DNA of 64,000 nucleotides from Candidatus Methylomirabilis sp. (GTDB lineage Bacteria; Muiribacteriota; Ozemobacteria; Ozemobacterales; Ozemobacteraceae), in contig DYKG01000012.1 of assembly GCA_020722725.1 (NCBI GenBank), forward strand, positions 1 through 64,000, given 5' to 3'. The position numbers were made by a program, and so were the translations under genes. This document shows positions 12,030 to 20,737 of the stretch, one piece after another. Below the pieces are notes generated by a model that did not search any database, was not told where the DNA came from, and worked only from the letters and a program-made list of their open reading frames with translations. Every line of letters starts with the position of its first letter. Position 1 is the stretch's first letter.

Positions 12030-13175
12030 TTAAATAACCGGAGTGCCTTTTGGGTAGTTTACCCCAAGGTGTTTGGCGACGGTTGCGGCTACATCCCAGA
12101 AGCCTTTTCTGATACCGAGATCTTTGCCGGGTTTGCCGGGCCGATACACGAGAAGCGGCACCGCTTCGCGGGTATGGTCTGAGCCTTTATAGGTCGGGTC
12201 ACAGCCGTGGTCAGCGGTAATCATAAGAATGTCATCATTTTTCATGGTTTTAACAAACTTGCCCAGCCAGAGGTCAAACTCTTCAAGGGCTTTGCGGTAG
12301 CCGGGCACATCACGGCGATGCCCATAGTTCATGTCGGTTTCGACCAGATTGGTAAAAATGAAGCCATCTTTGACTTTTTGCATCGCTTCATCGGTTTTCT
12401 GCATTCCATCAGCGTTACTCTTGGTGGTAACGTGGGGCTCAACGCCTTGGCCGGCAAAAATATCGTAAATTTTGCCGACACCGTATGTCGGAATGCCCTT
12501 GGCTTTCAGCACGTCAAGAACGGTCTCGTCAGGGGTCAAACTGAAATCATGGCGGTTGGGGGTTCGGGTGTATCTGCCCGAAGTTCCAAGGAAGGGGCGG
12601 GCGATGACCCGTGCTGCGCCAAGATCAGGCGGTTGCAGCATATCGCGGGCAACCTGGCAGATGCGATAAAGTTCTTTCAGCGGAATGATTTCTTCATGAG
12701 CGGCAATCTGAAACACCGAATCAGCCGAAGTGTAAACGATCGGGTTGCCGGTTTTTACATGTTCATCGCCAAGCTGCTGAATTATTTCAGTGCCCGAAGC
12801 AGGGTAATTGCCGATGGTTTTGCGGCCAATCGCTTTTTCGAATTTTTCAATGAATTCTTTCGGAAATCCGTCGGGAAAAACCGGAAAAGCGAAATCAATT
12901 TTGGCTCCCATCATTTCCCAGTGGCCGGTGGTAGTATCTTTGCCCGGTGAAAGTTCATACATGATGCCGTATGAGCCATTGGTTTCTTTAGTTGGCGCAA
13001 CGCCAACGATGTCGGCCAGATTGCCCAGCCCCATTTTCTGCATATTGGGAACATTCAATCCGCCGGCAACTCGCGCCAGATTTGGGATGGTTGCCGCACC
13101 GGTATCGCCATATTCGGCCTGGTCAGGCATCGGGCCGATGCCTGCGCTGTCAAGTACTATACATATAGCTCGCAT
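12030..13175 (-). CDS. deoB: Phosphopentomutase, last gene of the BMC operon
   Basis: DeoB interconverts (deoxy)ribose 1-phosphate and 5-phosphate. The 381 residues contain the alkaline-phosphatase-superfamily metal site beginning at Asp9 in [20 protein letters not shown], the nucleophile region [18 protein letters not shown], and [12 protein letters not shown]. Start ATG 13175 is chosen by the family start ([10 protein letters not shown]); an in-frame TTG upstream gives a poly-lysine extension. Last gene downstream of the shell and enzyme genes, separated from rpiB by 231 bases with palindromic repeats. Inferred role: feeding phosphorylase-derived (deoxy)ribose 1-phosphate to the compartment. 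No encapsulation peptide is visible, so it probably acts outside the shell. Confidence 0.95.
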
Positions 13176-13230
13176 TTCAATTTTTTTCCTTTTCAAAAAT
13201 TTGTGGTTGTAATTTACAAAAAACCTTATG

Positions 13231-13406: not shown

Positions 13407-13868
13407 TCAACAACTATTGTTCTTATAAATATCTTCGATTTTCATGATTTTTTCAACCCGATTTGCATGACGCCCCGGAGCCGGGGCTGTCTCAAGCCAC
13501 AGATCGACGATCTGCTTCATGTAGCCGGTGCCGATAACCATGCTGCCAAGGGTCAGGACATTAGCATGATTATGTTCGCGGCTGTTGCGTGCGGTATAAA
13601 GGTCGTTGCAGCAGGCGGCACGAACTCCCGGCACTTTGTTGGCCGCCATGCATGAGCCGATTCCCGCACCATCAATGATTATTCCGAGGGTGTGGGGGTT
13701 CTGAGAAACCCGAGAAGCCACGAGAAAAGCAATGTCGGGATAATCTACCGCAGCAGTCGAGTAGGCACCAACGTCGTCATAAACGATGCCCTTTGAATCG
13801 AGATGTTTTTTCAATTCTTCTTTATGGGGAAATCCGCCGTGATCGGCACCTATTACCAGTTTAGGCAT
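13407..13868 (-). CDS. RpiB-like ribose-5-phosphate isomerase homologue of the BMC operon
   Basis: 153 residues of the RpiB/LacAB fold. GADHGGFPHKEELKKHL, VDYPDIA, MAANKVPGVRAA and REHNHANVLTLGS align along the family. In E. coli RpiB a cysteine in CGTGIG acts as base; here the motif reads DGAGIGS, with Asp66 in place of that cysteine. Some RpiB enzymes replace it with serine and use another residue, so activity is possible but the substrate may differ. RpiB-like proteins are a hallmark of the sugar-phosphate-utilising BMC class. The start shares a base with the pduT stop (TGATG), so translation is coupled. Confidence 0.88.
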   Translation of the reverse strand: MPKLVIGADHGGFPHKEELKKHLDSKGIVYDDVGAYSTAAVDYPDIAFLVASRVSQNPHTLGIIIDGAGIGSCMAANKVPGVRAACCNDLYTARNSREHNHANVLTLGSMVIGTGYMKQIVDLWLETAPAPGRHANRVEKIMKIEDIYKNNSC

Positions 13869-14422
13869 CAGATAAACTCCTGAAAAAGCTCTTCTCTGGG
13901 TCGTGGAATAACCACATGATGAACCACCAGACCCTTGCCTTCGAGTGAGCTGATGCCGGCAGCCACTGCGGCTTCTACTGCAGCCACATCACCGGTCATT
14001 GTGTAAAAAGCTTTGCCGCCGATTGCCATGGCAATGCGAATTTCACAAAGAGTTACGTTGGCAGCCTTTACCGAAGCGTCAGCAGCAAGAATCGCGGAAA
14101 CGATGTCGAAAGTCTCGATGACCCCAAGAGCCCCGGTTTCTTTAACCTGATTGGTCGCGGTCATTGCCGGGTAAATCTGCGGATGAAGGTTGGGAATGAC
14201 CAGATCATTTACCAGATAGCCTTGTCCCATGCGGATTCCAGCTTCAACGCTGGCTTCTACTGCTGCCACATCACCCCATACCAGGCACACGAATTTGCCC
14301 GGGCAGACGGTTCGCGAAAGAACCAGTTCTACCGAAGCGGTTTTCAGCATGGTGTCGGTAACCAGATAACCGACTGAGATGCTTGATAATTCAATCAGTC
14401 CAATGGCGTTTTGATTAATCAT
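13868..14422 (-). CDS. pduT: Tandem-domain BMC shell protein, PduT type
   Basis: 184 residues with two BMC domains: about 5-90 (AIGLIELSSISVGYLVTD) and 95-180 (GALGVIETFDIVSAILAAD). Length and layout match Salmonella PduT, a pseudohexameric trimer whose pore cysteine in CPGKF binds a [4Fe-4S] cluster. The same motif, TVCPGKF with Cys40, is present here. The inferred role is moving electrons or a cluster through the shell together with PduS, the preceding gene. It follows pduS by seven bases. Confidence 0.9.
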   Translation of the reverse strand: MINQNAIGLIELSSISVGYLVTDTMLKTASVELVLSRTVCPGKFVCLVWGDVAAVEASVEAGIRMGQGYLVNDLVIPNLHPQIYPAMTATNQVKETGALGVIETFDIVSAILAADASVKAANVTLCEIRIAMAIGGKAFYTMTGDVAAVEAAVAAGISSLEGKGLVVHHVVIPRPREELFQEFI

Positions 14423-14429
14423 TTGAACC

Positions 14430-15743
14430 TCATTCTCTGGTGATGGTAACAGACTGGTCGGTGACCGCGGTTACTTTGCCGCTGATCGTGGCATGCAGAG
14501 CCGCGCCCAGTTTTCCTTCGGGTATGGCGGCGACAAGCTGGCCGATTTTTACTTTTTCACCGACTTTTACCACCGGCATAGAAGGCGCGCCAATGTGCAT
14601 TTTCAATGGTAGAAGAACTTTTTCGAATCTGACGTTAACCGCTTCATACGGAGCCTTTTTGTCATATTCGAGCAGTGCCAGCTTTTTAAGCAGCCTTTCG
14701 ATGCTGACCCGGCGCACTGAACGCATGGGGTTTACCGTTGGCGGGCCTTTGAAATCAGCGGCCTTTACGCCTTTTGCCAGGTGATTGCGTTTGGAAATCC
14801 GGCACATTTCTCTGGGGGTCAGGTCTTCGGGGCATGAAAAAAGGGAACACAGACCGCATTCGCTGCAGAAAATCGAATCAATTGCATAGTTTGAGTCGGC
14901 ATAAGGGGCGAACTGGGAGGTGCGCATTGCTTTATGGGGCCTGATCGGGTAACCGAGCAGAGCTCTCGGGCACAACTCGCTGCAGTCGGTGCATTGATCG
15001 CAGGCTGAGCGGGCGATGCGTGAATTTTCATGGTCGTTGCGCTTCATTTTTCTTATCAGAACGTGATCATCTGGCAAAGCGATCAGACCGCCGCAGGTTT
15101 TGCTGACGATTTCAGTAACCGGGTTGCTGATCAGCCGGCCCATCATTGGCCCGCCGTCAATAACACAAAGGCCTCTCAGGTCGTTCAACCCTGCAAGGCT
15201 AAGGGCCTCGGCTACCGTAATTCCAAAGGGAATTTCGATGGTTTTCGGCATTGGCAAAGCCCCGGTCAGGGTGAGAAATTTTGTGGTAACCGGGCGTTGG
15301 CGGCCCAGATTCATCAGGGTTTCCACATTGCTGACCACGCAGCCGATGTTGAGTGGAATGCCGCCGAAGGGAATCAGCTTGCCGGTTGCTTCATAAACCA
15401 GCTCATACTCGTCGCCGGCGGGGTAAAAATCACCAAGCGGCAGCATTTTGATACGTTTGTCGGGAACGGCTTTTTCGAGATAAGCCAGCAGTTTGGCGTA
15501 TTTTTTCTTCATGCCGATGAATGACTGGCGCGCGCCGGTCATTTCCATGGCCATGATCAATCCTCTGAAGAAATCGTCGGTAAAGTGCCAGAGAATTTCT
15601 TTGTCTTTGTGCAGCAGCGGTTCACATTCGGCGGCGTTAACGATGATCGCGTCGACGTTTTTGGCCGCCAGCTTCACATGGGTGGGAAAACCGGCACCGC
15701 CACAGCCAACCAGGCCAAGTTCTGCCAGATTAAAATTTGCCAT
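14430..15743 (-). CDS. pduS: PduS-like flavin/iron-sulfur oxidoreductase (RnfC family)
   Basis: 437 residues. The N-terminal SLBB/RnfC-like NADH and FMN-binding part begins LGLVGCGGAGFPTHVKLAAK and includes VNAAECEPLL. Two [4Fe-4S] sites follow: Cys248, 251, 254, 258 (CDQCTDCSELCP) and Cys293, 296, 299, 304 (CSECGLCSLFSCP). A C-terminal lipoyl-like hammerhead closes the protein. In propanediol compartments PduS reduces cobalamin using NADH and contacts PduT. No B12-dependent enzyme is encoded nearby, so here it more likely re-oxidises NADH from the aldehyde dehydrogenase, with electrons leaving through PduT. A terminator-like hairpin separates it from the upstream gene. Confidence 0.92.
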   Translation of the reverse strand: MANFNLAELGLVGCGGAGFPTHVKLAAKNVDAIIVNAAECEPLLHKDKEILWHFTDDFFRGLIMAMEMTGARQSFIGMKKKYAKLLAYLEKAVPDKRIKMLPLGDFYPAGDEYELVYEATGKLIPFGGIPLNIGCVVSNVETLMNLGRQRPVTTKFLTLTGALPMPKTIEIPFGITVAEALSLAGLNDLRGLCVIDGGPMMGRLISNPVTEIVSKTCGGLIALPDDHVLIRKMKRNDHENSRIARSACDQCTDCSELCPRALLGYPIRPHKAMRTSQFAPYADSNYAIDSIFCSECGLCSLFSCPEDLTPREMCRISKRNHLAKGVKAADFKGPPTVNPMRSVRRVSIERLLKKLALLEYDKKAPYEAVNVRFEKVLLPLKMHIGAPSMPVVKVGEKVKIGQLVAAIPEGKLGAALHATISGKVTAVTDQSVTITRE

Positions 15744-15833: not shown

Positions 15834-17249
15834 TTACACGATTCTGAAAGAATCTACGATAACGCAGCGTCTTTGCCGGGTGAATGAGCGGGCAGTCGTA
15901 ATACCTTCACCAGTTGGCGAAGCAATGGTCATGGTGGTGCAGCCTTCGCCACCAAAACCCAGACCGGCATAGCTTGGCCCGTTTTTAACGAAGATCGAGC
16001 AGTCACATTTTCTTGCCATCAGGTGAAGGTTGTCGATGTTCTTGCTGTGCATTACCGCAGTGTGCCGATTGCCGTGTTCAACTTTTACTGCCAGATCAAT
16101 TGCAGCATAAACATCGCGAACCCGAACCAGTGGAATAACCGGCATCAACAGTTCTTCAACGACAAACGGATGATCGGGCGCCACTTCACAGAGAACGATA
16201 CGTGTATCATCGGGAACACGAACGCCTATTTCGGCTAGAATAACTGAAGCGTTGCGCCCCACCAGTTTTCGATTGGGAGCACCGGTTTTCTGATCGATGC
16301 ATATTTTTTCAAGCTGCATGATCTCACGGGCTGATGCTTCGTAAGCTCCACTGTTGCGCATGTGCTTTTTGAGATCATCGGCAACGGATTCGACAACGAT
16401 AATTTCTTTTTCGGCAATACATAGAACGTTGTTGTCGAGGCTGGCCCCAGAAATTATATCGCGGGCAGCTTTGCGCAGGTCAGCGGTTTCGTCGACCACG
16501 GCAGGCGGGTTGCCTGGGCCGGCTGCGATGTATTTTTTCTGAGATTTGGATGCAGCGGCAACCACACCAGGGCCGCCGGTTACCGTCAGAAGTCTGATCC
16601 CCGGGTGCGTCATAATCTTTTGAGCATTATCCTGATTGGCCTCGGCAACTGTGGTCAAAAGGTTTTCCGGACCTCCCGCTTCGACGATGGCATCGTTGAG
16701 AAGGCTCATGGTGAACCGGCTACAGCCGGCAGCTGCGGGGTGGGGGGCAAAAACAACGCCATTACCGGCTGCAATCATACTTATGGAATTATTGATGACT
16801 GAGGCGGTTGGGTTGGTTGATGGAGTAATGGCACCGATTACGCCGTATGGAGCGAGTTCCATAATTGTGAGTCCGTGATCCCCTGAATTTGCGGTGGGGT
16901 AAAGATCTTCAAGACCCGGCGTCTTTTCGATAACCAGCTTGTTCTTTTGAATTTTGTCTTCAATTCTGCCGTAGCCGGTTTCCTGATGGGCAAACCGGGC
17001 AAGTTCTTCAACTTTTTCCATCGAGCGCCGCCGCATATTGGCAATGATCTTTTCGCGGGTGGCAAGGGGAAGATCCATGAGCTGTTTCTGCGCCTTATCT
17101 GCGGCAGCAACAGCTTCATCGACGGTAATGAAAACCCCCCGTCCGGCAGGTACTGCAGAACTTGTCTGGGGCGCAGCGACTCCGGATACATTCAGCTTTT
17201 TGATCACTTCCTGAACGATCAGGCTCAAATCTTCCCTTGAAACGCTCAT
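15834..17249 (-). CDS. CoA-acylating aldehyde dehydrogenase, PduP/EutE type
   Basis: Oxidises an aldehyde to acyl-CoA with NAD+ inside the compartment. The 471 residues begin with an amphipathic helix, SREDLSLIVQEVIKKLNV (about 4-21), then a flexible Ala/Pro linker; this is the usual encapsulation peptide. The catalytic cysteine is Cys277 in NNVLCIAEKE, and the NAD-binding segment VTGGPGVV is intact. The aldehyde is not specified by sequence. Acetaldehyde is the natural candidate if deoxyribose 5-phosphate is cleaved, but no aldolase is encoded in the window. Confidence 0.93.
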   Translation of the reverse strand: MSVSREDLSLIVQEVIKKLNVSGVAAPQTSSAVPAGRGVFITVDEAVAAADKAQKQLMDLPLATREKIIANMRRRSMEKVEELARFAHQETGYGRIEDKIQKNKLVIEKTPGLEDLYPTANSGDHGLTIMELAPYGVIGAITPSTNPTASVINNSISMIAAGNGVVFAPHPAAAGCSRFTMSLLNDAIVEAGGPENLLTTVAEANQDNAQKIMTHPGIRLLTVTGGPGVVAAASKSQKKYIAAGPGNPPAVVDETADLRKAARDIISGASLDNNVLCIAEKEIIVVESVADDLKKHMRNSGAYEASAREIMQLEKICIDQKTGAPNRKLVGRNASVILAEIGVRVPDDTRIVLCEVAPDHPFVVEELLMPVIPLVRVRDVYAAIDLAVKVEHGNRHTAVMHSKNIDNLHLMARKCDCSIFVKNGPSYAGLGFGGEGCTTMTIASPTGEGITTARSFTRQRRCVIVDSFRIV

Positions 17250-17283: not shown

Positions 17284-17565
17284 TCAGGAACGTTCCGAGT
17301 CAAATACCACTTCATCTACGATGGCGCAGACGGCGGCATCGACTGGTTTTTTGAGGGTTCTTTCGGTTAAACGAGCCGAACTCCCTGAAACCACCAGAAC
17401 GTTCTCTGAGGCTCCGGCTCCAACCGCGTCAACAGCTACAACATGATTGCCAGTCGGTTTTTTCGTATCAAGAGCCAGCTCTTCTACCACGAGAAATTTC
17501 ATGCCAATCAAGCTGTTATCTTTGCGGGTACAAACAACAGTACCGCATACGCGGCCAAGTATCAT
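17284..17565 (-). CDS. BMC-P pentameric vertex protein (EutN/CcmL family)
   Basis: 93 residues starting MILGRVCGTVVCTRKDNSLIGMKFLVVEEL, the standard EutN/CcmL/PduN opening, with VAVDAVGAGASENVLVVSGSSAR and DAAVCAIVDEV. Such proteins form pentamers that cap icosahedral shell vertices. Only one BMC-P gene is present, lying between BMC-H and the aldehyde dehydrogenase. Confidence 0.95.
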   Translation of the reverse strand: MILGRVCGTVVCTRKDNSLIGMKFLVVEELALDTKKPTGNHVVAVDAVGAGASENVLVVSGSSARLTERTLKKPVDAAVCAIVDEVVFDSERS

Positions 17566-17583: not shown

Positions 17584-17880
17584 TTACTTCTTGGAGTTGG
17601 CGATCATTTCGCGAATCGGCATAACTTCATCAAGATTCTGATGAGGGCGGGGAATAACATGAACGCAGACCAGTTCGCCGATTTTCTTGGCGGCGGCTGC
17701 ACCGGCATCAGTAGCAGCTTTAACTGCGGCAACATCGCCTCTTACGAAAGCAGTTACGTAGCCTGAACCGATTTTTTCCCAGCCTACCAGTTTAACGTTG
17801 GCGGCCTTGACCATTGCGTCAGTTGCTTCGATAAGTGCGGTTAATCCTTTAGTTTCAATCATACCCAGGGCTTCCTGCAT
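17584..17880 (-). CDS. BMC-H hexameric shell protein (PduA/EutM type)
   Basis: 98 residues with one Pfam-BMC fold: [26 protein letters not shown], the pore loop [18 protein letters not shown], and [15 protein letters not shown]. The GSG pore resembles PduA and EutM, which pass small polar metabolites. The ATG at 17880 is five bases from a strong GGAGG; an earlier TTG is rejected because it overlaps that site. It is the only BMC-H in the operon, so the facets are probably built from this one protein plus PduT. Confidence 0.95.
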
Positions 17881-17913
17881 GATGACCTCCAAAAATATTT
17901 TTAAGCAGATTTT

Positions 17914-18555
17914 TTAAGCAATTAATTCAACCATGTCGCCGTTTTTTATGCCGGCGGCGTTGGCTTCATCCGTATCAAGGTGAAAATCAAGTGCAAACTT
18001 GTTGCTGGCACGAACCAGAACATTGTTGAAAACTACTGACTTGGGGCCGTTTGATTTGATCGAAATGCGATCCATATCTTTGAGGCCGAATTTTTCAGCA
18101 TCTTTGTCGCTGATGTGCAGATGGCGGGCGGCGACGATTACGCCTTCTTTAAGGGTTACTGCGCCCTTGGGGCCGATAACGATGCAGCCAGGGGTTCCTG
18201 CGGTGTCGCCTGAATCTCTTACAAATGGCTTAATGCCAAGTTTGAAACAGTCGGTAGTTGAAATTTCAACCTGAGTTGCCGGGCGAACTGGTCCGAGAAT
18301 TCTTACTTTTTCGATTATCCCTTTGGGCCCGATGATGGTGATACATTCTTCGGCGGCAAACTGGGCCGGCTGAGAAAGATCTTTCATCGGGGTCAGCTTG
18401 TAGCCCTGGCCAAAAATGGTTTCAAGGTCAGCCTGAGAGATGTGAGCGTGTCGATTGCTGACTCCACAAGGTATCATGCCCGGTTTGATGCGGCCACGAA
18501 TGTCGATGTGTTTCAGGACTTCGGCTACGATTAATTTAACCTGATTTTCATCCAT
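17914..18555 (-). CDS. pduL: Phosphotransacylase PduL
   Basis: Converts acyl-CoA and phosphate to acyl phosphate, recycling CoA within the compartment. The 213 residues start with a short amphipathic helix, ENQVKLIVAEVLKHI, a likely encapsulation peptide. Two PduL beta-barrel repeats follow: CGVSNRHAHISQADLE and VAARHLHISDKDAE, supplying the zinc-binding histidines, with FHLDTDEANA near the end. No acetate or propionate kinase gene is nearby to use the acyl phosphate. AAGGA precedes the ATG by nine bases. Confidence 0.95.
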   Translation of the reverse strand: MDENQVKLIVAEVLKHIDIRGRIKPGMIPCGVSNRHAHISQADLETIFGQGYKLTPMKDLSQPAQFAAEECITIIGPKGIIEKVRILGPVRPATQVEISTTDCFKLGIKPFVRDSGDTAGTPGCIVIGPKGAVTLKEGVIVAARHLHISDKDAEKFGLKDMDRISIKSNGPKSVVFNNVLVRASNKFALDFHLDTDEANAAGIKNGDMVELIA

Positions 18556-18561
18556 TGCTGT

Positions 18562-19629
18562 TTATCCTTTCCTGAAAGGCAATTGCATAAGATAATCATT
18601 CTCGGCGATTATTGCTCCCGTTGCCGGTAAGCCGCTCTGATCAAATAGTCTGGCATCATACAACGGTGTCAGCGGCAGTGAAGACGCAACATCAGTGGCA
18701 ATTATATCACAGCCGGTACCAGACGCAAGTGTAAAAGTTGAAAAAAGCTCAAGGTTATGTTTTTTTGCCTGCTTTAACAGATCCTGCAGGTTTTGTGGCT
18801 GGCAGTACGGCGGAAAAGCGGGGATAATGGCCCCGTGACAGCGCAGGTCGGCAAGCATGGCCGCCGAGGTCTCGCCGGTAAATGCGCCCTGATGCGCCCA
18901 ATGAATAGTCGATGCAACGACTTTTTCACGCAAAGAAGGGCAAACCTGAGCAAAAACCGGGATCACCAGAGGATTGAGAACGAAAAACAGATCCTGATTG
19001 AATCGTGACGCGAGATTGAAAAAATCACTCCGCTGGTTAAGAATCTTAGATGGGCTTAATCGGCTGAAATCAGCAAGAAGCTTCAAATTGTCGGCGGCGA
19101 TTTTCATGCCCAGCGATTCGGCCACTTCGGCCGCCCATGAGGTTATCGGCCGGGATTCAGAAATGGTTCTGATGCCGTTCTGGTGCATTTCTCTGATTTC
19201 GTCGGCAGTTATAAAGTCGTGGTTCGAAGCATAATCTGTTTTTTCAGAAACTGGCCCGGTCGATTGTTGAGTCAGCTCTGCCAGTTCCCCGGCGAGAATG
19301 TAGTCGATTCCAAGCTCTCGCATTTCTTTGCCTGGAGCCGATTTTCGATCAACGAGAATGAAAACCCTGGCCCCGGATGAACCACAGAATACGTGCCACA
19401 AGGCTTCGGTTTCTGTGGTGTCGCGAATACCCAGGCTGATTTTGGTGAGGTGCGGATGAAGAGAACCACAGTCAATGACTACGGCGGCAAACTGTTGCAG
19501 GCCCATGTAATTCAATGAAGCCGGCCCGGTCGCCGTAAATTTTTCTATCGGCAAAGAGAAGGGTGGGGAGGCAAATTGCCCAGCTGCCCTGGATTTGTCG
19601 GTTATTATCAGAATTTTTTTTGCGGTCAT
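18562..19629 (-). CDS. BMC three-part protein: flavoprotein-like domain, EutQ-like linker, degenerate TIM-like domain
   Basis: First gene of the operon, 355 residues, function unknown. Residues 1-120 resemble flavoprotein-like proteins of BMC loci (VVIDCGSLHPHLTKISLGIRD, then a distal GIDYILAGELAEL). Residues 138-176, FITADEIREMHQNG through PITSWAAEVAESLG, match the segment found in EutQ and related BMC proteins. Residues 178 to about 310 look like triose-phosphate isomerase: DNLKLL recalls the NWKxN strand, NPLVIPVFAQ the next, and GAFTGETSAAML at 248-259 is the TIM signature. The catalytic His of GHSERR is replaced (IPAFPPYC) and no clear AYEPVWAIGTG glutamate loop exists, though a GTG occurs at 304-306. 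It is probably non-catalytic, perhaps a binding or scaffold protein. The domain assignment is inference. Confidence 0.7.
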   Translation of the reverse strand: MTAKKILIITDKSRAAGQFASPPFSLPIEKFTATGPASLNYMGLQQFAAVVIDCGSLHPHLTKISLGIRDTTETEALWHVFCGSSGARVFILVDRKSAPGKEMRELGIDYILAGELAELTQQSTGPVSEKTDYASNHDFITADEIREMHQNGIRTISESRPITSWAAEVAESLGMKIAADNLKLLADFSRLSPSKILNQRSDFFNLASRFNQDLFFVLNPLVIPVFAQVCPSLREKVVASTIHWAHQGAFTGETSAAMLADLRCHGAIIPAFPPYCQPQNLQDLLKQAKKHNLELFSTFTLASGTGCDIIATDVASSLPLTPLYDARLFDQSGLPATGAIIAENDYLMQLPFRKG

Positions 19630-19721: not shown

Positions 19722-19897
19722 AATTTTAGACCCCGCAATTGCCGTGTTAAAGAAAAATTGAACCCGACTGAAACAGTACGGTTGTCCGCCTGTTTAATCG
19801 CCGGGGGCTTCGTGCCGGCGATTATGCCGGTCGTAAGTGTTTCTCGGTGATAAACAGAGACAGATTCCCTTTCGGATACAGGTGTCGGCTCAATTTA
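19682..19897 (-). ncRNA. Candidate structured small RNA of about 215 nt, family unknown
   Basis: Read on the minus strand, ATTGAGCCGAC (19884-19894) pairs with GTCGGGTTCAAT (19757-19768) to close a multibranched fold. Inside are a nine-base-pair hairpin, AATCGCCGG/CCGGCGATT (19796-19823), and an AAACAG/CTGTTT hairpin with an inner CGG/CCG. A CCGAAAGG tetraloop-like element also lies inside. A terminator ends the unit at 19682. A TGATAATAC extended -10 at about 19902-19910 would start it at the closing stem. I found no cobalamin, c-di-GMP, T-box, RNase P, SRP or tmRNA core motifs. It could be 6S-like, or a leader of the operon. Confidence 0.42.
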
Positions 19898-20037
19898 ACC
19901 TGTATTATCACGCACAACGCAGGGAAAACTTTTCAAAGAGCTTATAATTAAAAAATATCAAAATACCGGGGCTCGCGCAACAAATTTAAGCAAAATTTAA
20001 ATCTATATTTATCATGGAAAAAACTTGTTCGATAAGG

Positions 20038-20101: not shown

Positions 20102-20737
20102 ATGAAATTTTCGCTTAGAGTCGGCTTTCTGATTCTTGTAATACTGGTGCTGACGGCCAATATCGTTTCTGCGGTCACTCCTGAATTTGCCGAGGCGCAT
20201 CGTGAGCCATTGCAACCTGAAAAAGACATCGTATTCAAGAAAACACTGTTTGTTTGCGGGCTGGTAAATGCGGCCTACCTGGGAATAAACGACCTGGTAG
20301 CAGCTCTGCAGCTGGCAAAAACCACCAAATATAAAAATGTTAACCCTGATGGCCTTGCTGCCCAGCTGCTGGCCGTTAAAATCGGATTGGTTGAAAAGCC
20401 TGCTCTGATCAGGTACATCGCCAGAGAGATTACCTTCTGTGAAAAATACCCCCATTTTCCCCTGGGGTTCAACGATTCGCCTGAAGGCCGCGAAAAAATC
20501 AGTGTGGAATTCTTCAAAATCGCTGATCATATTGAGAAGTTGCCGGTTAACCACAATTTAAAAGACCTGCCGGCACTCAAAAAAGAAGCAGAACGGGTGG
20601 TGTTTGAACTGTTCTGGACCGACAGCGAAAAAATGCGCACCCTCTGCATCGATATGATGAACTTCATCAGGGTCGAACTCAAAGAAGACTTGCCGTTTGA
20701 CATTTTCGCCAAACCTATACCCCGCCCGGAAAACTAA
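20102..20737 (+). CDS. Secreted protein of unknown function
   Basis: 211 residues. A cleavable signal peptide covers about 1-24 (LRVGFLILVILVLTANIVSAVTPE, cut after VSA). The mature part is mainly helical and charged, with two cysteines (FVCGLVNAAY and TFCEKYPHFPLGFND) and no motif I recognise. It has its own promoter and overlaps the end of the convergent uvrB by four bases. It may sit in the periplasm or outside the cell; no lipobox. Confidence 0.7.
   Translation: MKFSLRVGFLILVILVLTANIVSAVTPEFAEAHREPLQPEKDIVFKKTLFVCGLVNAAYLGINDLVAALQLAKTTKYKNVNPDGLAAQLLAVKIGLVEKPALIRYIAREITFCEKYPHFPLGFNDSPEGREKISVEFFKIADHIEKLPVNHNLKDLPALKKEAERVVFELFWTDSEKMRTLCIDMMNFIRVELKEDLPFDIFAKPIPRPEN

Follow-up and report, generated by a model that had tools for sequence, protein, structure and literature searches.

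A gene at the head of a bacterial microcompartment operon was found to encode a protein of 355 aa, designated FlavTIM, whose C-terminal ~175 residues descend, as judged from profile comparison and the predicted fold, from triose-phosphate isomerase (TIM). In the aligned sequences the catalytic residues and phosphate loops of the enzyme appear to have been lost from this domain, and the dimer-interface loop 3, GA[F/Y]TGE.S..M, was present in 17 of 17 FlavTIM homologues. Our tentative reading is that the domain may be a pseudoenzyme docking module, a plug for genuine TIM at the microcompartment. The preliminary description of this DNA had proposed a degenerate TIM domain in a three-part microcompartment protein, and the analysis upheld that proposal: a microcompartment accessory protein, encoded in a shell locus with RpiB, AldDH and PduL, carries a fused TIM-derived domain that is degenerate and apparently non-catalytic, and DeoC is encoded on another contig.

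Gene and protein layout

The window, a stretch of 64,000 nucleotides, belongs to a genome of 3.6 Mb in 89 contigs (G000). FlavTIM occupies positions 18562..19629, where the open reading frame had already been placed; it lies on the minus strand, with its ATG at 19629 and its stop ending at 18562. The N-terminal domain (residues 1-122; 19264..19629, minus strand), which carries an SLGIRD motif, is weakly indicated to be Rossmann-like, and possibly flavoprotein-like, by the AF2 secondary structure and by a TIGR02536 match in homologue L047. It is followed by an EutQ-like segment recognised by the NCBIfam EutQ model (residues 136-176, TADEIR...TSWAAEVAESLG; 19102..19224, minus strand) and by the TIM-derived domain (residues 180-355; 18565..19092, minus strand), a truncated barrel according to AF2 and PDB fold matches. 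The last codons of FlavTIM contain the probable Shine-Dalgarno site of the next gene, pduL (AGGAAAGGA; 18565..18573, minus strand). A C-terminal Lys-Gly is conserved in FlavTIM because these codons are that probable site read in frame, and its interpretation as a functional tail was therefore rejected.

Descent of the C-terminal domain from TIM

The Pfam TIM model (PF00121) matched FlavTIM residues 227-269 (E = 1.1e-6; score 28.8 bits, above its cut-off of 20.1) and also matched 10 of the 10 homologues tested; the NCBIfam TIM equivalog cut-offs were not reached by FlavTIM (23.4 vs 293 bits and 20.2 vs 130.6 bits). When a profile of the C-domain family was aligned with TIMs using hhalign, a probability of 97.5% (P = 8.7e-12) was obtained over TIM residues 15-123, about strands 1-5, which correspond to FlavTIM residues 191-294 (18748..19059, minus strand). 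The controls gave 1.3% (C-domain vs DeoC) and 0.5% (N-domain vs TIM). An AlphaFold2 model of residues 173-355, made with ten sequences (pLDDT 80.5, pTM 0.78), showed seven strands, and its confidence was low at domain positions 131-144. All of the 50 PDB matches listed for this model were TIM or the TIM-family L-erythrulose-1-phosphate isomerase, with a TM-score of up to 0.59 of the query; tighter superpositions on several TIM-family structures gave about 3.2 A over about 127 columns. The full-length model returned the same fold answer as the isolated domain. Profile comparison and structure prediction, the checks named in the preliminary description, both pointed to TIM. A chance match of the motif to TIM was ruled out by the Pfam, profile and fold evidence, as was a generic TIM-barrel similarity, given the lack of a C-domain match to the DeoC barrel and the restriction of the 50 listed fold matches to the TIM family.

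The original observation concerned residues 248-259 (GAFTGETSAAML), described as identical to E. coli TpiA. The motif aligned with many PDB TIMs, among them 1tre and 4k6a, which are E. coli TIM entries; E. coli TpiA has the motif letter for letter. Joint alignment also placed NPLVIPVF at TIM strand 2 (PPF), as had been suggested. The proposed resemblance of DNLKLL to NWKLN was borne out as to its rough position at strand 1, but neither Asn nor Lys is conserved there in the family. The domain was also found to be shortened, as reported, with about 175 residues vs 250 in TIM. In a phylogenetic tree the FlavTIM C-domains formed a single, fully supported clade, but its distance from the TIMs, nearly 4 changes per site, was too great for the tree to point to a donor TIM.

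Residues lost and residues kept

Asn11, Lys13, His95, Glu97 and Glu165, present in 15 of 15 TIMs in the joint alignment, were conserved in none of the 17 FlavTIM homologues. Strand 4 and loop 4 (residues 266-278; 18796..18834, minus strand) read GAIIPAFPPYCQP in place of the TIM GHSERR, the loss of which had been noticed in the window protein and extended to all 17 homologues; neither the loop-4 catalytic His nor the Glu-Arg was conserved among them. The profile alignment stopped at TIM residue 123, and TIM strands 6-8 with their phosphate loops were gone or unrecognisable. Because the catalytic residues have been lost, isomerase activity is expected to be absent.

In the TIM dimer, loops 1 and 4 of each subunit form a socket beside which loop 3 of the partner inserts, and in every TIM loop 3 ranks with the best-conserved parts. 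This loop interdigitates with the partner subunit as a dimer contact, and its deletion leads to monomers (PMC4664265). In FlavTIM, loop 3 and the start of helix 3 (the dimer plug; residues 248-262, GAFTGETSAAMLADL; 18844..18888, minus strand) were marked by invariant columns: G248, A249, T251, G252, E253, S255 and M258 were invariant among the 17 homologues, position 250 was F or Y in all of them, and D261 was conserved in 94%. Mean pairwise identity was 69% in the loop-3 core and 61% over residues 237-270, compared to 47% in the EutQ-like segment; the N-domain and the remainder of the C-domain reached 30-37%. Eight of the 14 C-domain columns conserved at >=94% fell within the 12 plug positions (hypergeometric P = 6e-8, in a test devised after the motif had been seen). 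No FlavTIM column in loops 1 and 4 exceeded 88%, and loop 4 carried a new, partly conserved P..PY motif. With loop 3 kept and loops 1 and 4 not conserved, FlavTIM therefore has a plug without a socket.

Whole-gene dN/dS between pairs of close homologues was 0.11-0.36. The C-domain gave 0.10-0.43, and values for the loop-3 region went down to 0.04. The FlavTIM frames were open, with no internal stops, in all genomes. FlavTIM is under purifying selection and is not a decaying gene.

Operon and compartment type

Downstream of FlavTIM, all on the minus strand, lie genes for the PduL phosphotransacylase (PTAC; 17914..18555; PF06130, E = 3e-78), a BMC-H shell protein (17584..17892; PF00936), an EutN/CcmL pentamer shell protein (17284..17565; PF03319), an aldehyde dehydrogenase (15834..17249; PF00171), a PduS/RnfC-like flavo-iron-sulfur protein (14430..15743; PF01512, PF13375, PF13534), a BMC-T shell protein with two BMC domains (13868..14422; PF00936 twice), an RpiB-type sugar-phosphate isomerase (13407..13868; PF02502) and a phosphopentomutase-like protein (12030..13196; PF01676), which from knowledge of the family we take to be DeoB. 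In 16 of 16 homologous loci FlavTIM immediately preceded pduL, and the order FlavTIM-pduL-BMC_H-eutN-aldDH-pduS-BMC_T-rpiB, often then deoB, recurred where the contig was long enough; in locus L027, deoB was on the other strand.

Judged by its gene content, the operon is a sugar-phosphate (SPU-type) microcompartment locus. Survey accounts of this type give it AldDH, PduL, RpiB, PduS, shell proteins and a DeoC aldolase (PMC4207490, PMC8217296). RpiB, AldDH, PduL and shell proteins were found in the operon, and DeoC was found beside a second EutN on contig C74 of the same genome. The DeoC protein (L042:2363-3865) has 500 residues: its start is encapsulation-peptide-like, and a TIGR02536-like domain and a Cys-rich linker precede the DeoC part; most FlavTIM genomes had a DeoC with such a start and its own TIGR02536-like domain. 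Two conserved Cys clusters in the linker, HKCxxC...C..C and CxxxxCxxxYGSC, could form a metal or Fe-S cluster site. A separate full-length TpiA is encoded in a gap-pgk-tpi cluster of the window's genome (contig C61, 263667-264404), and a separate TpiA was found in every genome searched.

Two further features were observed near the operon. A full-length match to 6S RNA (RF00013), the sole one in the genome, lies just upstream (19726-19928, minus strand; 40.5 bits vs a gathering score of 46.4, E = 9.7e-7); a hairpin with a T run comes next. A 6S match recurred at the equivalent place in 9 of 15 homologous loci, and the matches in L006 and L004 (49.1 and 47.8 bits) exceeded the cut-off. On the plus strand, positions 20102-20737 hold an open reading frame of 211 aa with a signal-peptide-like start and no Pfam match, which was also found near the operon in several relatives (49-71% identical).

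The N-terminal region

The N-terminal 175 residues of the window protein and its homologues had no credible Pfam match, and a PDB profile search with the N-domain returned one weak designed protein only. Residues 87-174 of homologue L047 matched the C-terminal half of TIGR02536 (eut_hyp; E = 9.3e-5), a family of ethanolamine loci and presumably a flavoprotein-like module; the cut-off of this model was not reached, the best score being 22.1 vs 152.6 bits, in L047 only. Residues 136-180 matched the start of the EutQ model, about positions 2-51 of 233, with low scores (E = 0.0052 in the window protein and 6.3e-4 in L047), and T141, T163, W165, A166, E168, A170 and L173 of this segment were invariant among the 17 homologues. 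In EutQ a cupin-type part follows, whereas in FlavTIM that part is absent and the TIM-derived domain takes its place. Of the two N-terminal parts in the preliminary description, the EutQ-like linker was recovered at E = 6e-4 to 5e-3, and the flavoprotein-like domain was reached only through TIGR02536 in one homologue (E = 9e-5). The TIGR02536 model also touched the N-domain of the DeoC protein (E = 0.0013); direct profile comparison of the FlavTIM and DeoC N-domains was not significant (0.2%), so that the weak TIGR02536 signal is all they share. The TIGR02536 and EutQ signals hint at a module shared among microcompartment proteins but stop short of proving one. No recognisable encapsulation peptide was found in FlavTIM.

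Distribution and natural loss

Homologues of FlavTIM were found in 16 other genomes of the same family (Candidatus Riflebacteria, Ozemobacteraceae) and in none outside it among the phylum genomes searched; a weak extra match in G012 was the ordinary TIM of that genome. The N-domain model, searched against 382 genomes, matched only the 17 family members. Because the matches were confined to these genomes, FlavTIM is lineage-restricted at present sampling.

Within the family, the fate of FlavTIM follows the shell. The four genomes of genus g10 (loci L108, L109, L110, L111) had no FlavTIM and no BMC-domain shell protein anywhere, two of them being about 95% complete. In this genus pduL and deoB were still side by side, with no aldDH, pduS or rpiB beside pduL, and DeoC, where found, was a protein of 234-254 residues without the flavoprotein-like part; one (L138) keeps an encapsulation-peptide-like start. 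In more distant families of the phylum, which have an SPU-like locus or a pduL-eutN-aldDH cluster, FlavTIM was absent from it. The absence of FlavTIM from G006 was not counted as a true loss: an assembly gap is more likely, because the 6S RNA that elsewhere lies just upstream of FlavTIM sits at the end of a contig. Separately, loci L114, L115 and L117, from family f8 of the phylum, hold an additional TIM paralogue, divergent and full-length, whose gene neighbourhood is conserved and which does not lie with the first tpiA.

A possible docking role and its alternatives

The binder or scaffold role suggested in the preliminary description stands only as an inference for the C-domain, drawn because the part retained is the TIM dimer-interface loop. 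A TIM may have been fused to a TIGR02536/flavoprotein-like module with an EutQ-like segment and later reduced to roughly the first five of its strands. With the plug kept and the socket gone, FlavTIM is unlikely to form a symmetric homodimer of the TIM type; the simplest use of the retained loop would be to dock one-sidedly into a subunit of a genuine TIM, the genome's own TpiA. Docking of this kind would recruit TIM to the compartment, the site of glyceraldehyde 3-phosphate release by DeoC, or would regulate it there. The N-terminal part probably attaches FlavTIM to the compartment or its cargo. In other families, catalytically inactive paralogues are known that partner the live enzyme and regulate it (PMC5201418, PMC3663545). 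A fuller version, in which the pseudo-TIM recruits or controls TpiA by mimicry, presenting only loop 3 to its subunits, is less likely than not; in that version TIM would either receive at the shell the glyceraldehyde 3-phosphate made by DeoC or be restrained there.

The retention of loop 3 could partly reflect folding or helix-3 capping, although the equally conserved catalytic loops of TIM did not survive in FlavTIM. A partner other than TpiA, or FlavTIM itself with a new socket, would leave an identical signature. Docking to TpiA is put forward with considerable reserve, and other docking or self-association is about as likely.

One such arrangement, possible though uncertain, is that the C-domain serves self-association or scaffolding, forming a homo-oligomer or binding PduL, AldDH or DeoC through loop 3 and a rebuilt socket, with no involvement of TpiA. 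It is consistent with the part played by loop 3 as an interface element in TIM (PMC4664265) and with the constant position of FlavTIM beside pduL (16 of 16), and the new P..PY motif of loop 4 could belong to the new socket; however, the C-domain varies strongly outside loop 3, which would be unusual for a rebuilt and conserved socket. It is improbable that FlavTIM is a remodelled enzyme, with an N-domain that binds flavin or a nucleotide and a TIM-derived domain that has gained another catalytic or substrate-binding role. The relation of the N-domain to the flavoprotein-like TIGR02536, its invariant L66, G67 and D70, and the CDI[I/M] motif after strand 5, conserved in most homologues, would fit such an enzyme, but no invariant polar set resembling an active site was found in the C-domain outside loop 3 among the 17 homologues, and divergence has been fast (31-45% identity to the window protein among FlavTIM homologues vs mostly 60-90% for the operon neighbours).

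TIM loops 6-8 hold the phosphate of the substrate. The sensing of glyceraldehyde 3-phosphate raised in the preliminary description, or its buffering, is therefore very improbable, since those loops and strands 6-8, like Lys13, His95 and Glu165, have been lost or are not conserved across the 17 homologues, and the phosphate site is gone, even though DeoC, which produces this compound, belongs to the same compartment type in the published catalogue (PMC8217296). A vestigial domain, in which the fused TIM no longer has any function and is being lost, is equally hard to credit: FlavTIM branches are longer than TpiA branches from the same genomes, divergence is fast, and one homologue has a shortened tail (L032/G008) and another lacks a stretch (L029/G005), but the C-domain dN/dS values given above and the intact loop 3 in 17 of 17 homologues stand against it.

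Relation to known systems and meaning

FlavTIM is homologous to TpiA (PF00121) over about strands 1-5 and keeps loop 3 as GAFTGE.S..ML; it differs in its fusion to a microcompartment protein and in the loss of the conserved catalytic Asn, Lys, His and Glu and of the phosphate loops. Its locus shares AldDH, PduL, RpiB, PduS, shell proteins and the DeoC aldolase with other SPU loci. A 2014 survey described an Atribacteria SPU locus with an ordinary, separate TIM, 44% identical to a known TIM, which helped to name the type (Axen 2014 PMC4207490). Because that locus has a separate TIM protein and FlavTIM carries a degenerate, fused one, TIM is tied to SPU-kind compartments in two forms. In its main text, the 2021 catalogue is silent on both Riflebacteria and triose (Sutter 2021 PMC8217296). 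The trypanosome prozyme of S-adenosylmethionine decarboxylase and the dead deoxyhypusine synthase paralogue likewise coexist with a live enzyme, and are proposed to act, as FlavTIM may, through an ancestral oligomer interface; they belong to another fold and pathway, and in FlavTIM binding to the live enzyme is only inferred.

Judged by the databases and literature consulted, FlavTIM is a new domain arrangement, with a well supported TIM-derived domain, and it adds a pseudoenzyme to the bacterial microcompartment parts list. The fate of the triose phosphate released by DeoC in SPU compartments is not settled in the literature consulted, and FlavTIM raises the question of whether a compartment may organise core glycolysis around itself by means of an interface copied from a glycolytic enzyme and since worn down. 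The survival of loop 3 alone through strong divergence is a natural experiment on the reusable part of an ancient enzyme.
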